A stretch of DNA of 64,000 nucleotides from assembly GCA_025055575.1 (NCBI GenBank), contig JANWWP010000023.1:38763-102762 (forward strand). The letters run 5' to 3'. The DNA is from Flavobacteriales bacterium. GTDB taxonomy: Bacteria > Bacteroidota > Bacteroidia > CAIKAF01. Shown here in pieces: positions 34,722 to 42,529 of this stretch. Within the stretch, counting starts at the first letter, position 1, and the number at the start of each line of letters is the position of its first letter. Below the pieces are notes generated by a model. It was not told where the DNA came from, made no database searches, and saw only the letters and a program-made list of their open reading frames with translations. Both the position numbers and the translations under genes were made by a program.

Positions 34722-35543
34722 TTATGGACGTTCGCGCTCCAGATCCTGCCGCAGGCGCCTCAGTTCATCCTGAACGGCAGAAAGCGCGTCGTGAAGGTGG
34801 TTTTTGCTCAGGTTGGGCGGTGGCAGTTCGCTGCTGATGTAATTTACAAAGCGCCATACCTCCAGCACATCCTCTGCCCGCACTTCATAGGGAGGGTACG
34901 CCGGGTTGGTGGAAGAAAGAACAAAAGAGCCCCTTTCCTTCAATTCATTTTTCAGGATTTTAAAAACAACCCCTTCCTGCCGGGTTACAACGATGCAGGG
35001 TGTGCCATCGCGGAGGCCCATCCAGTTGTCCACATATTCACCCGTAACGTAGGAGCCATCGCCCACGGGAGGCATGCTGTCGCCCTTTATCTGGAAGGTG
35101 CGGTGCTTGCGGTCGGTGCGCAAAAAAGGCAGGTGAAAGGCCGGCAAAACCCGAATGTATTCCGGATCGGCATATCCGGTGGTGTAACCGGCGCGCGCTT
35201 TTTCAGGAACCAGCTCCACATTTTCCCGGCCTTGATGATCGGTTGTGGTGACGACCACACGCAGATTCCGGCCCCGGGCCCTTTCTTCCGCCCCCATTTC
35301 CAGGCTGCGCAGCTGGCTTTCGCGATAGGTTTCCAAAGGCTCGCGCAATAAAACATCTAGGGGCATCCTGAAGTAATCAGCCATCTGCAACAGGCACTCC
35401 AACGGCGGTTCTGCCACGCCTTGTTCATAGGCGCTCCAAGTGGTGCGTTTAAGTCCTAGGGCGTCGGCTACGTCTTCCTGAGACCGCTTTAAACGTTTTC
35501 TCAAAAAGCGAATATTGGAGGCCAAATGATGGAGTTTCGACAT
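34722..35543 (-). CDS. XRE-family regulator with C-terminal S24 (LexA/CI-like) domain
   Basis: HTH RSQEDVADALGLKRTTWSAYEQGVAEPPL; S24-like FQIKGDSMPPVGDGSYVTGEYVDNW; start at MSKLHHLASN. Confidence 0.88.
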   Translation of the reverse strand: MSKLHHLASNIRFLRKRLKRSQEDVADALGLKRTTWSAYEQGVAEPPLECLLQMADYFRMPLDVLLREPLETYRESQLRSLEMGAEERARGRNLRVVVTTTDHQGRENVELVPEKARAGYTTGYADPEYIRVLPAFHLPFLRTDRKHRTFQIKGDSMPPVGDGSYVTGEYVDNWMGLRDGTPCIVVTRQEGVVFKILKNELKERGSFVLSSTNPAYPPYEVRAEDVLEVWRFVNYISSELPPPNLSKNHLHDALSAVQDELRRLRQDLERERP

Positions 35544-35554
35544 ATTTATTGGCA

Positions 35555-35562
35555 CAAAATTA
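35555..35562 (-). promoter_or_regulatory. -7 element TAATTTTG for the XRE-S24 gene
   Basis: Reverse complement of CAAAATTA; 11 nt before the ATG. Confidence 0.5.
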
Positions 35563-35571
35563 GTCAAAATA

Positions 35572-35642: not shown

Positions 35643-37733
35643 TCAAAACTTTAATCTCATCTGTAGCCGAGCATCCGTGCGTACGTTGCCATCAATCTGA
35701 GAGGGGCCCGAGCTGATCACTTGACGATCTGCATACCAGGTGTGCGCCACTTTTATCCACAAATCCCAAAACCTCAAAATCTGCCACCGCAGCACCGCGT
35801 AAGTTCGAATACCTCGGCCATACAGGGCCGGAATAGAGAAATAGTACAAAACATCGTTTTCATACGCATACAAGCGGGTGTCATAATCCGATGTTTGAAA
35901 AAGAGTGTAACGCAAAGCCAGGGCCAAAGGCTTTTTGAGACTTTTGTAGGTGATGTCAGCGAACATCATGTAGCCGTATTTGCGGCCTTCGGAGGGGGCA
36001 TCAAAAATCATCATCTCCGCCCGCCCTCTCAGGCGTATGCGGCGTCCGGCGTCGGTGGTAAGGTTCAAGCGGATGTTGGTGCGAGCCAGATCTTCCACAA
36101 TGTTAATAATTGGAGCATTGCGCACGTTTTGCTGTCCCAAGCGATGGCGTACCCGTCCGTAAATTTCAGTTCCTTTGACGGGCATCCAGGTCACCTGAAG
36201 CAAACCATCCCAGGCCCGACCCGGTGCTTCTGCGCCATAGCGCGGCCAGGGAAAACGAATTTGATCAAAGTAGCCGGAGATGCCCACACGGCGCACCGGG
36301 CGGCAGTCCACTCCCAGATAGAGCCCACTTTCGTTGTTCCCGCCACGGCGATCGGCCACTGGATTGGCATACAAAGCAGCGTAGGAAGGTTGAAAATTCC
36401 GGTAATAAGCTGTGAAGGTGAAAAAGGTCGTCAAAGTGGCCTGAAGCCCATGCACCATTGCCCAGCCGCGCGGCTGGCTCCGCGAGACTTCCCCAAACAA
36501 TGTAAAATGCGGGCCCACCCACTGGTAATCCACACCTAAGTTGACCAGACTATTGCCCTGAAAACGGTACACATTATAAAGCGCTTCGCTACGGCGCAGC
36601 ACCGCATTAAGGTGCGTGTACACTCCGGTAAATCCGACGCGGAGATTTCGCCAGTTGATATCGGCATGTCCTCCGGCCATCTGTTCGCGTACGGTGCCTT
36701 TGTTGTCGATTTCTGAGACAGTACGGTGCAAACCGGACGTGATGAGGGAACTGATTTCGGGCAGGTTGTTCAAAATGTCCTCCGTGGTGGTGTCGGTTTC
36801 GACCAAGTTGCCATCTAAATTTTTGCGGGAATAAAAGGCTGTAATATCCAACCATGGAAGAGGTCGAAGCGTGAAGGCGCCGCCCCGCATGAACAAATTT
36901 TCATTGATAGAAGTGTAAGGCCTCAGACCCTGTCCGGTGCGCCGCAGATTGATACCGAAAGCGGTCTTTCCGAAAGCCAGCCCGGTCCAAAGAGTAAGCC
37001 CCTGGCCAAAACGACATTGATAGTCTCCCAAAGCCAGGGCTTTCAACCATTTAATATTGCTGATAAAAAGGTGCGCGCTATAAAAATCAAATCCATATTT
37101 ATTCACCCCTGAAAAAAAAGGCTCGCCGGCATCCTTGTCGGCCGTAAACCCAATGCTATAATGCCGGTTGTGCTGATAACGGAAACGGGTGAAAAGCCCA
37201 AAGGGCGGCCCCAGAAAGCCACGGGTCGGATCTTCGGCATTCTGAATGTAGCCCGCCTGCCGCTGAAAGGTATATAGACTTCTGAAAAACCACTCTCCAC
37301 GGCCATATTTTAAAAGGCGCCTGAAAGAGAGGGAAGTCCGTGCGTCCTCGTTGCGGACAGTGACAAAAGGGCGTACCACATCGATGGTTTCATCGTCCAG
37401 ACCCGGTATCAGCTTCAATTCATATAACGTCACCAGAGGCCCGTGGTTTTTGCGGTACTTCAGAATGTTCTCTATCTGGCGATCGGTGAAGACTTGCAAC
37501 TTTTCGAGATCCTCCCTCGTGGCCTGATTCAAATCCAGTGGATGTTCAAAAAAATACTGGAGATCTTCCGTGAGGGTGGTGAAATCCAACTGTTCATCCA
37601 CGTTGTCTGTAATGGTTTCAATGAGCTTTTCAATCAGATTATCCCGTCGGGTTTCATCGTCCCGGGCCCTGTCCCTCTGGGCCATCAGAAAACAGGGCCA
37701 AAGGATCAGAAAAAAAAGGGTGCAGCGGCTCAT
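35643..37733 (-). CDS. Fusion of ComEA-type helix-hairpin-helix domain with predicted outer-membrane beta-barrel
   Basis: Signal peptide MSRCTLFFLILWPCFLMAQ; LDLNQATREDLEKLQVFTDRQIENILKYRKNHGPLVTLYELKLIPGLDDETIDVVRPFV; long amphipathic-strand region ending in ...ARLQMRLKF. Confidence 0.75.
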   Translation of the reverse strand: MSRCTLFFLILWPCFLMAQRDRARDDETRRDNLIEKLIETITDNVDEQLDFTTLTEDLQYFFEHPLDLNQATREDLEKLQVFTDRQIENILKYRKNHGPLVTLYELKLIPGLDDETIDVVRPFVTVRNEDARTSLSFRRLLKYGRGEWFFRSLYTFQRQAGYIQNAEDPTRGFLGPPFGLFTRFRYQHNRHYSIGFTADKDAGEPFFSGVNKYGFDFYSAHLFISNIKWLKALALGDYQCRFGQGLTLWTGLAFGKTAFGINLRRTGQGLRPYTSINENLFMRGGAFTLRPLPWLDITAFYSRKNLDGNLVETDTTTEDILNNLPEISSLITSGLHRTVSEIDNKGTVREQMAGGHADINWRNLRVGFTGVYTHLNAVLRRSEALYNVYRFQGNSLVNLGVDYQWVGPHFTLFGEVSRSQPRGWAMVHGLQATLTTFFTFTAYYRNFQPSYAALYANPVADRRGGNNESGLYLGVDCRPVRRVGISGYFDQIRFPWPRYGAEAPGRAWDGLLQVTWMPVKGTEIYGRVRHRLGQQNVRNAPIINIVEDLARTNIRLNLTTDAGRRIRLRGRAEMMIFDAPSEGRKYGYMMFADITYKSLKKPLALALRYTLFQTSDYDTRLYAYENDVLYYFSIPALYGRGIRTYAVLRWQILRFWDLWIKVAHTWYADRQVISSGPSQIDGNVRTDARLQMRLKF

Positions 37734-38620
37734 GGTTCGGAAGCGCTCGAGCTTGAACGGTTTCGGCGCATTTCCTTTTGAACCTGGGGCCCGAAATCCA
37801 CCGAAAGCCCGGCTTGGGGCGAAAAGCCCAAGACCTGATGGTAGGAGGAAGCCAGATCCAGTTGCCAGGGGCCCAGCCTCAGCCCCATGCCAAAAGCGGC
37901 CGTCACGGGACCAGTACCGCCCCCGGCCCGCACCTGAAGGATCGGAACCGGAAGATATTCCAGGCCCAACCGAACGGCAAAAGGCCGGTCCAGGTCTTTT
38001 TCTGCATCCACATGCGTCCGAAGTTTTCCCGCCCACAGGTATCCAATTCCAAACCGTACCAGAGCCGGAAGCCTTTCATTATCAAAGGCAGCGATGGTTT
38101 GGCGCACAGGATTCACCAAATGAAAGGCCACCGAAAAATCCCGGGTGGGCCGTGCCAGCACGCCCAATTCCCCCGTGAAAGCATGGGCCGAACCGTACAT
38201 ATCCCCAAAAGCCAAGTAATGGTAATTAAAAGTCATCCCAGCGCTCAGGTAAGGGCTAAAAGTGCGGGCGTAGGAAAAAGATAGGCGGTTCCTGTTAAAA
38301 AAGCGGCCTCCGAAGCGCAAAAAAGCCAGATTAAAAACACCCAGACGCCGCGTCGCAGCGGCAGCAGACATACCCGCCGTACCAAGTTCGGGCAATAGAA
38401 ACCGATTGTCATAAAAAACACCGGCCCCACTGCGACCCAGGTAACCCAAAGCCCCCGGATTATTGAAGGCCGCGTATACATCCACGTTGCACAGAGAGGC
38501 ATGGGCCATTCCCGCAGCCCTTCCGCCCACCGGCCAGGATTGTGCTTCTAAACCCACGATGGCGATAGAACAGGCGAGTCCGGTGGCTATTAATCTTTTA
38601 AGGCATCGATGTCGGGACAT
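37730..38620 (-). CDS. PorV/PorQ-like (FadL-type) outer-membrane barrel protein
   Basis: GGRAAGMAHASLCNVDVYAAFNNPGALGYL N-terminal motif of PorV/PorQ-like proteins; 4-nt ATGA overlap with the downstream HhH gene. Confidence 0.65.
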   Translation of the reverse strand: MSRHRCLKRLIATGLACSIAIVGLEAQSWPVGGRAAGMAHASLCNVDVYAAFNNPGALGYLGRSGAGVFYDNRFLLPELGTAGMSAAAATRRLGVFNLAFLRFGGRFFNRNRLSFSYARTFSPYLSAGMTFNYHYLAFGDMYGSAHAFTGELGVLARPTRDFSVAFHLVNPVRQTIAAFDNERLPALVRFGIGYLWAGKLRTHVDAEKDLDRPFAVRLGLEYLPVPILQVRAGGGTGPVTAAFGMGLRLGPWQLDLASSYHQVLGFSPQAGLSVDFGPQVQKEMRRNRSSSSASEP

Positions 38621-39129
38621 AGGCGACCAAACTGAAAAGACTCCAGGTTGAGTTGGTGCTGCGCATCCAGCACTTTCGTTTTTAAGGATTGCTTAAAGGC
38701 CAGAAGACGTTCCTGAAGTGCAGGATCTGACAAGGCCAAAATGGAAGCCGCCAGGAGCCCCGCATTGTGGGCATTGTTCAAGGCTACGGTGGCCACCGGA
38801 ATGCCGGCCGGCATTTGCAGAATGGAGAGGAGGCTATCCCATCCGTCCAGACTCTGGGATGACTTTACCGGCACACCTATCACCGGAAGAACGGTGTGGG
38901 AAGCCACCATGCCCGGCAGATGGGCCGCGCCGCCAGCTCCTGCCACCAGGACCCCCAGGCCTCTTTGAAGTGCCGAAGCGGCGTAGCGCGCCATAAATTC
39001 CGGAGTACGATGGGCTGAAACAACCGCTGCTTCAAAAGGCACCTGCAATTCATCTAAAATCTTCGCGGCACCTTGCATCACCTCCCAGTCCGATGCACTG
39101 CCCATGATTATGCCCACTCTGGCTTGCAT
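38590..39129 (-). CDS. purE: 5-(carboxyamino)imidazole ribonucleotide mutase
   Basis: VGIIMGSASDWEVMQGAAKILDELQVPFEAAVVSAHRTPEFM; VLVAGAGGAAHLPGMVASHTVLPVIGVPV. Confidence 0.96.
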   Translation of the reverse strand: MQARVGIIMGSASDWEVMQGAAKILDELQVPFEAAVVSAHRTPEFMARYAASALQRGLGVLVAGAGGAAHLPGMVASHTVLPVIGVPVKSSQSLDGWDSLLSILQMPAGIPVATVALNNAHNAGLLAASILALSDPALQERLLAFKQSLKTKVLDAQHQLNLESFQFGRLCPDIDALKD

Positions 39130-40354: not shown

Positions 40355-42529
40355 ATGGAACGGTTCTATTATGACAACAAAATTGTAAAATTCTTCCTCA
40401 TCGCCACGGTGGTGTGGGGAATTGTGGGCATGCTGGTGGGCCTACTGGCGGCCTATCAGTTGTATTTTCCGGAACTCAACCTGGGCCTTCCTTATACCTC
40501 CTTTGGGCGCATCCGCCCCCTGCACACGAACGCTGTAATTTTCGCATTTGTGGGCAATGCCATTTTTATGGGGGTGTATTATTCTACACAAAGGCTGTTA
40601 AAGGCCCGCATGTTCAGTGATTTTTTAAGTTGGTTTCATTTCTGGGGCTGGCAATTGATTATTCTTTCTGCGGCTCTGACTCTGCCCACCGGGCATACCC
40701 AGGGAAAAGAGTACGCCGAGCTGGAATGGCCTATTGACATTGCCATCGCTTTGGTGTGGGTGGCATTTGGGACCAATTTGATCGGCACCATGATCCGGCG
40801 CAGGGTGCAGCACATGTATGTAGCCATTTGGTTTTATGTAGCCTCCTTCGTCACTGTGGCTGTGCTCCACATCGTGAATTCTATTTCGATACCGGCAGGT
40901 TTTTTAAAAAGCTACTCGATATATGCCGGTGTTCAGGACGCGCTGGTGCAGTGGTGGTATGGCCATAATGCAGTGGCCTTTTTTCTTACCACGCCCTATT
41001 TGGGCCTCATGTATTACTTTTTAGTAAAAGCCGCCAACCGTCCGGTTTATTCTTACCGCCTCTCCATCGTTCATTTCTGGACGCTGATTTTCATTTATAT
41101 CTGGGCTGGCCCCCACCATCTTTTGTATACGGCCTTACCCAACTGGGCCCAGGCCTTAGGGGTGATTTTTTCAGTCATGCTGATTGCGCCTTCCTGGGGC
41201 GGTATGGTGAACGGTTTGCTGACGCTGCGTGGGGCTTGGGACAAAGTGCGCGAAGATCCGGTTCTGAAATTTTTTGTGGTGGCCGTCACGGCCTACGGTA
41301 TGGCCACTTTCGAGGGTCCCATGCTGTCCCTAAAAAATGTCAATGCCATCAGCCACTACACAGACTGGACAGTGGCCCACGCGCATGTGGGCGCTCTGGG
41401 CTGGAACGGATTTCTCACCTTCGGAATGCTGTATTGGCTGGTGCCACGTATGTGGCAAACCACCCTGTTTTCGAAAAAACTGGCTGACTTCCACTTCTGG
41501 ATTGGCACGTTGGGCATCATTTTCTATGCCCTGCCCATGTATGTTGCGGCGCTTACCCAAGCCCTGATGTGGAAGCAATTCAATGAGGAAGGTCTGCTCC
41601 AGTACCCGAACTTCCTGCAAACTGTAAAGCAAATCATGCCCATGTATTTACTGCGCGGCATTGGCGGCACGCTCTACCTGGCCGGGGTGGTGGTGATGGT
41701 GTACAACCTCATTAAAACGGCGGCTCAGGGCAAGTTTCTGGCAGAAGAAGAAGCCGAAGCACCCGCCCTCGCCCCCTCCCAAGCCCACACGGGCGGATTC
41801 AGCCACCGCGTTTTGGAACGCAAACCCGTGTTGTTTACCTCCTTGGCTCTGGTGGCCATCCTCATTGGCGGGGTAATTGAATTCCTTCCTGCTTTCCTCA
41901 TCAAAACCAATGTTCCGACCATCGAAAGCGTTAAGCCCCTCACGGCCCTTGAATTGCAGGGACGGGATATCTACATCCGGGAGGGTTGTTACAATTGCCA
42001 TTCCCAAATGATTCGACCCTTCCGTTCCGAAACCGAGCGCTACGGGGAGTATTCTAAAGTGGGCGAATTTGTCTATGATCATCCTTTTCAATGGGGATCC
42101 AAACGCACAGGGCCCGACCTGGCAAGGGAAGGCGGAAAAAATCCCCACGCCTGGCACTTTTTGCATATGTACGATCCCTCACTCACGTCCGCAGGAACCA
42201 TCATGCCCGGCTACAAGTGGATGATCACCAACGATCTGGATCTCTCCAGCACCAGAGCCAAAATCAAAGCCCTTCGAACGGCCGGAGTTCCCTATCCGGA
42301 AGGCTACGAAGAACAAGCAGAAGCCGACTTGATCCGTCAGGCTAAGGATCTTGCCGATCAGTTGAAAACCGATGCCAAAGTGCAGCAGATCCTTGAGATG
42401 GAGGGAATCACGGAATTGGAAAATAAAGAAATCGTGGCCATGATTGCCTACATGCAACGTCTGGGGCGTGATATTCAGGGCGATACAAGCAGCCACAAAT
42501 ACCTGCCTCCCCAACTCACCAAAAAATAA
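40355..42529 (+). CDS. ccoN: cbb3-type cytochrome c oxidase fused subunits I/II (CcoNO)
   Basis: Heme-copper oxidase VAHAHVGALGWNG, WAGPHHLLYTALPNW; CcoO part EGCYNCHSQMIRPFRSETERYGEYSKVGEFVYDHPFQWGSKRTGPDLAREGG. Confidence 0.96.
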   Translation: MERFYYDNKIVKFFLIATVVWGIVGMLVGLLAAYQLYFPELNLGLPYTSFGRIRPLHTNAVIFAFVGNAIFMGVYYSTQRLLKARMFSDFLSWFHFWGWQLIILSAALTLPTGHTQGKEYAELEWPIDIAIALVWVAFGTNLIGTMIRRRVQHMYVAIWFYVASFVTVAVLHIVNSISIPAGFLKSYSIYAGVQDALVQWWYGHNAVAFFLTTPYLGLMYYFLVKAANRPVYSYRLSIVHFWTLIFIYIWAGPHHLLYTALPNWAQALGVIFSVMLIAPSWGGMVNGLLTLRGAWDKVREDPVLKFFVVAVTAYGMATFEGPMLSLKNVNAISHYTDWTVAHAHVGALGWNGFLTFGMLYWLVPRMWQTTLFSKKLADFHFWIGTLGIIFYALPMYVAALTQALMWKQFNEEGLLQYPNFLQTVKQIMPMYLLRGIGGTLYLAGVVVMVYNLIKTAAQGKFLAEEEAEAPALAPSQAHTGGFSHRVLERKPVLFTSLALVAILIGGVIEFLPAFLIKTNVPTIESVKPLTALELQGRDIYIREGCYNCHSQMIRPFRSETERYGEYSKVGEFVYDHPFQWGSKRTGPDLAREGGKNPHAWHFLHMYDPSLTSAGTIMPGYKWMITNDLDLSSTRAKIKALRTAGVPYPEGYEEQAEADLIRQAKDLADQLKTDAKVQQILEMEGITELENKEIVAMIAYMQRLGRDIQGDTSSHKYLPPQLTKK

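Follow-up and report, generated by a model that had tools for sequence, protein, structure and literature searches.

The locus described here lies in a window of 64,000 nucleotides, by which we mean the whole stretch of DNA that was analysed. It carries two neighbouring genes for outer-membrane barrels, a large one that joins an HhH domain to a predicted beta-barrel (P0001) and a smaller, PorV-like one (P0002). The P0002 gene sits directly upstream of the P0001 gene, and the two overlap by 4 nt (ATGA). The features of this module, together with those of related loci, are collected in Table 1.

Table 1. Features of the two-barrel module in the window and at related loci
Feature	Position	Strand	Description
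Large barrel protein P0001	35643..37733	-	696 aa, ATG start
Signal peptide, predicted	37680..37733	-	residues 1-18, cleavage ...LMA/Q; from sequence
HHH_3 (ComEA-type HhH) domain	37356..37544	-	residues 64-126; degenerate hairpins; Pfam
Beta-barrel, predicted	35646..37301	-	residues 145-696, ~24 strands; AlphaFold2 and Foldseek
PorV-like partner P0002	37730..38620	-	296 aa, predicted 14-strand barrel, N-terminal plug helices
purE (AIR carboxylase)	38590..39129	-	overlaps start of PorV-like gene
PorV-like barrel with C-terminal HHH_3	L119:3327-4478, L121:3454-4614		family f15
PorV-like barrel with C-terminal HHH_3	L120:3324-4439, L122:3098-4219		family f28
porD, divergent, beside module/partner	L051, L053-L057, L060-L067 and others (35/89); L123, L124, L125, L138		

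The first-pass annotation of this gene had proposed a signal peptide, a ComEA-type HhH domain and an outer-membrane barrel ending in a terminal Phe, all fused in one protein, and each of these parts is borne out. The N-terminus of P0001 is signal-peptide-like (MSRCTLFFLILWPCFLMA, then Q), and 96% of the aligned relatives keep the Q at position +1 (Q19). Residues 64-125 match the Pfam family HHH_3 (PF12836) with 43.9 bits (cut-off 27, E 2.5e-11), and the protein ends in ...ARLQMRLKF. The AlphaFold2 model, which was run on an 18-sequence alignment, places the HhH helices at residues 73-79, 84-97, 103-108 and 114-123, followed by a barrel of 24 strands, from residue 145 to 695, as tallied from its element list. 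This model has a pLDDT of 77 and a pTM of 0.76, and its barrel is of medium confidence, with the loops as the weakest region. The best 50 Foldseek matches of P0001 in the PDB are outer-membrane barrels only, including Mtr complex chain B, TonB-dependent receptors, AlgE and FimD, and all have TM <0.47, which supports the barrel class while a close solved relative is absent. P0001 thus shows the marks of an outer-membrane beta-barrel, namely a signal peptide, an even number of amphipathic strands, a terminal aromatic residue and the barrel fold. By sequence, phmmer and hmmsearch with the family profile match the N-terminal part to ComEA and other HhH chains of the PDB, and for the barrel part they return nothing convincing there, with a single marginal match at E 0.09. 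Pfam searches of the 18 aligned members give HHH_3 in 14 of them and no family for the barrel part; neither barrel of the window's pair has a Pfam family. The anatomy of the HhH-barrel protein is well supported, and its function is what we infer below.

Canonical HhH motifs grip the DNA backbone through GxG turns. The domain had been described as a tandem HhH, and here the HhH stands and the tandem does not, as there is one HHH_3 domain of two motifs, both without the GxG turn. The turns of P0001 read QVFTD in hairpin 1 and PGLDD in hairpin 2. GxG is found in hairpin 1 of none of the 89 family members and in hairpin 2 of 14, nearly all of which come from related genomes of two families (f21, f23). 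The fold positions N69, L76, R94, E105, L106 and P122 are retained; a check of DNA-contact geometry, as had been proposed, thus finds the fold residues in place and the turns lost. Compared with the ComEA-type periplasmic HhH proteins (PF12836; PDB 8dss, 8dfk), P0001 shares the HHH_3 fold and its fold residues, but differs in its fusion to an outer-membrane barrel and in the loss of the turns. It also falls below the ComEA cut-offs, with 21.0 against 53.1 bits for TIGR00426 and 22.9 against 152.35 bits for TIGR01259. The net charge of the HhH domain was considered as a sign of DNA binding and dropped as a criterion, because the solved ComEA domains have a similar charge of -2. A further likeness is to the periplasmic domain of T2SS GspK (T2SSK_1st), which 7 of the 18 aligned members match along half of their HhH region; this profile similarity is weak and below the curated cut-off, and the protein context differs. 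The GspK domain is a periplasmic HhH-like fold that serves protein contacts.

A device made of one protein, as was first envisaged, is not what the locus presents, since the gene of a PorV-like 14-strand barrel is coupled to that of the large barrel and co-occurs with it. The best PDB fold match of P0002 is the T9SS protein PorV (8gl6_F, TM 0.75, E 4.7e-10), and its predicted structure has the 14-strand FadL/PorV fold with an N-terminal plug. A profile of 40 partner sequences picks up PorV by sequence as well (E 4.5e-9). P0002 itself stays below the NCBI PorV/PorQ cut-off (NF033709, 32.8 against 90 bits), and the window's genome encodes a distinct, true PorV that scores 409 bits. Of the 89 family loci, 64 have the partner gene directly upstream on the same strand, and at such linked loci the ORFs of the two barrels usually overlap or nearly touch.

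The search for homologues of the same architecture, also proposed at first pass, finds relatives across the phylum. The starting set comprised 19 loci from Flavobacteriales, Saprospirales, Bacteroidales, Prevotellaceae, Prolixibacteraceae and others. In the phylum as a whole, 170 of 198 genomes match the large-barrel profile; some of these scores are weak and probably reflect the HhH part alone. At E <= 1e-30, the large barrel is present in 133 of the 158 genomes (~85%) of the window's class, taken as Bacteroidia. Matches this widespread, with the parts in the same order, make the architecture common and conserved and exclude a chance fusion. In a whole-genome search, none of 28 barrel-less Bacteroidia genomes has a partner of at least 80 bits (the highest background score is 57 bits), whereas 14 of 23 barrel-bearing genomes do, or 16 when two low-scoring adjacent copies are counted. 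These are raw counts that ignore kinship, and 14/23 is a low estimate because the 23 genomes were picked partly for their missing adjacent partner. Both barrel genes are present, though unlinked, in family f6, and a recognisable partner is missing in the barrel-bearing genomes G002, G007, G190, G222 and G226 and in most of f17. Literature searches returned no description of the two-barrel pair, the nearest account being a screen in Riemerella. The large barrel is one half of a widespread and previously unstudied pair of Bacteroidota outer-membrane barrels; the module occurs in most of the sampled Bacteroidia genomes, yet has neither a Pfam barrel family nor a description in the papers searched.

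Conservation along the large barrel bears on what kind of barrel it is. In ordinary porins and receptors, variability is usually highest in the surface loops. Here the ranking is the reverse, with a mean relative entropy of 1.96 for the long outer loops, 1.76 for the strands and 1.09 for the periplasmic turns, where the long loops are counted as extracellular on the premise that both ends of the large barrel are periplasmic. The order holds for the 59 loci that are shared with the partner (2.11, 1.90 and 1.21, respectively). Near-invariant residues of the large barrel include D201, G203, E204, E278, H336, R337, E468, E625 and G641. Such outer loops suggest a machine whose gate or cap is conserved. 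It is very unlikely that the protein is an ordinary porin or receptor in which the HhH fold is merely a periplasmic anchor or plug: passive and receptor barrels do appear among the best Foldseek matches, but the predicted surface loops show the highest conservation where the highest variability would be expected, and a strict partner barrel is unexpected for a simple porin.

The PorV likeness of the partner raises the question of the T9SS. The module could be an accessory or carrier-loading part of that system: the large barrel would provide the dock for the PorV-like barrel, which would be an alternative carrier, and both would cooperate with PorD and the SprA translocon. Beyond the fold and the sequence link that the partner shares with PorV, gene neighbourhood speaks for this reading. 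The genome's single-copy porD (NF052317) adjoins the module divergently in 35 of the 89 loci, spread over 13 families, and in three more (f22, f32, f40) it adjoins the PorV-like gene alone. The available parts of two T9SS papers (PMC8754138, PMC10994853) describe PorD as binding the PorW/SprE arm of the translocon; these parts report neither a porD neighbourhood with the present barrels nor such a protein in the Sov and SprA pull-downs, the latter weighing against the reading. Distribution weighs against it as well. The large barrel is present without SprA and PorD in all four genomes of f17 and in G002, whereas f4, f5 and some f3 genomes have SprA but not the large barrel; indeed, SprA is found in every barrel-less Bacteroidia genome tested. 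Strict T9SS membership was rejected on these grounds: with the barrel occurring without the T9SS, and the T9SS without the barrel, the barrel is not a core T9SS part. Even the accessory role seems to us unlikely.

The HHH_3 domain suggests a different cargo. To our knowledge, the crossing of the outer membrane by transforming DNA is not settled for this phylum. The barrel pair may be a DNA-uptake gate that passes transforming DNA, with the HhH domain catching it and handing it on to a ComEA-type protein and ComEC, a possibility that we consider doubtful. Support comes from family f2, where comEC lies directly downstream of the HhH-barrel gene, with ORFs that overlap or are 0-4 nt apart, in all four barrel-bearing genomes, from three genera (L093-L096). 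Three of these genomes have the order PorV-like gene, HhH-barrel gene, comEC, and G002 has HhH-barrel gene, comEC; the PorV-like gene is upstream in all the f2 loci but L094. However, adjacency to comEC is seen in f2 only, among about 55 families tested. In one lineage, this could be chance if several competence genes are considered, yet the coupling is tight. In f6, comEC adjoins a standalone HhH protein instead of the large barrel. The near absence of GxG turns across the 89 members also argues against DNA as the ligand. Co-occurrence with DprA and ComEC, a check proposed with the original DNA-uptake idea, can be made but is uninformative because both are near-universal: DprA is found in 80/80 genomes, barrel present or not, and ComEC in 79/80 barrel-bearing genomes. 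In two f3 genomes, dprA lies about 5 kb from the barrel gene, and this proximity is weak because other genes and the opposite strand intervene.

The HhH domain is not confined to the large barrel. The PorV-like barrel of four genomes, from the families f15 and f28, carries a C-terminal HHH_3 (54-64 bits), and it does so besides the HHH_3 of the large barrel. The occurrence of HHH_3 on either barrel marks it as a periplasmic part that can be exchanged within the module, and its presence on both is consistent with the receipt of DNA. As an observation in its own right, the PorV-like barrel with a C-terminal HHH_3 represents a second way of joining a barrel to HhH, and an unusual one.

Besides the barrel fusion there is a separate ComEA-type protein, which again counts against the uptake of DNA by the fusion. 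The second HhH protein of the window's genome (L002:937-1893, in G000:C79) has 318 aa, three HHH_3 matches, one intact GIG turn and a possible N-terminal membrane segment, and resembles the triple-HhH protein RA0C_RS02645 of Riemerella; it is likely the ComEA of this genome. ComEA-type HhH matches occur in 80/80 genomes tested, in most of them including a separate short protein, with some of the long frames among these matches probably other HhH proteins.

Another system to set beside the module is the transformation machinery of Riemerella. In Riemerella anatipestifer, the triple-HhH protein RA0C_RS02645 is essential for transformation, which also needs the outer-membrane proteins RA0C_RS04915/RS04920 (PMC8459023). 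The resemblance lies in a barrel of the Bacteroidota outer membrane, a surface-type protein beside it and an HhH protein, but RS02645 resembles the L002 protein of the window's genome rather than the barrel fusion, and the published pathway names no protein of the present kind (PMC8459023). The RS04915-type barrels belong to a family of their own, and their partner, unlike that of the HhH-barrel, is a DUF5689 protein. At most of the loci L107-L118, a TonB-receptor-like barrel lies directly upstream of the DUF5689 gene, and the profile of this type separates orthologues by a clear gap, with at least 366 bits against at most 128; the label rests on adjacency to DUF5689 genes and on the description in PMC8459023. 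The window's genome (G000) has no RS04915-type match at E 1e-30 (profile A3). Across genomes, this barrel occurs in 17/29 of those that lack the HhH-barrel but in 9/51 of those that have it, an excess that would favour DNA as the cargo. By family, our own tally fades to about 4/13 without and about 8/40 with the HhH-barrel, so that mutual exclusion is not established. Replacement of the Riemerella-type barrel by the HhH-barrel was rejected accordingly, as the genome-level signal, though suggestive, comes from few families, while many families lack both barrels and several have both. The claim that in many Bacteroidota the module is the natural-transformation gate, with DNA moving through the barrel pair and received by periplasmic HhH domains, appears to us a little more doubtful still.

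Sequences and structural models show a pair of barrels that are coupled and co-occur, a marked conservation of the predicted surface loops, and the loss of the GxG turns. The reading that we prefer, tentatively and with somewhat less than even confidence, is a two-barrel outer-membrane gate in the style of the T9SS translocon, with the HhH domain as its periplasmic docking part, and not a passive porin or nutrient receptor. By analogy with PorV on SprA, the PorV-like barrel would dock on the large barrel, and the conserved loops may serve as cap or gate of the large pore. Hanging in the periplasm, the HhH domain would dock or clamp either cargo or a periplasmic partner. Against this two-barrel gate, it must be said that the mechanism is incomplete and names no cargo, that no partner is recognisable in several of the genomes with the large barrel, and that the f2 comEC operon would be a coincidence under a non-DNA view.

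The comparison with the T9SS pair of SprA/Sov and PorV (6h3i, 8gl6) gives this gate its outline. Both systems pair a 14-strand PorV-fold barrel with a larger outer-membrane barrel, and gene neighbourhood ties the module to PorD. However, the large barrel has about 24 strands against 36 in SprA, shows no detectable sequence relation to it and carries an HhH domain. Additionally, the large barrel is found in genomes without a T9SS, and the true PorV of the window's genome is separate. The module thus resembles the SprA-PorV pair in outline but stands apart from it, and may be a gate organised in the same way yet distinct.

The order purE, then PorV-like gene, recurs at three other loci (L003, L011, L020), and purE probably shares a transcript with the module here and at those three loci, while it is not part of the module's function. 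Just downstream of the barrel gene (34722-35567, reverse strand) is a regulator with an XRE helix-turn-helix and a Peptidase_S24 domain (LexA/CI-like), a neighbour that is not conserved at other loci. Further along the window, on the forward strand (40355-42529), a 724-aa ORF appears by eye to be a fusion of the cbb3 oxidase subunits CcoN and CcoO.
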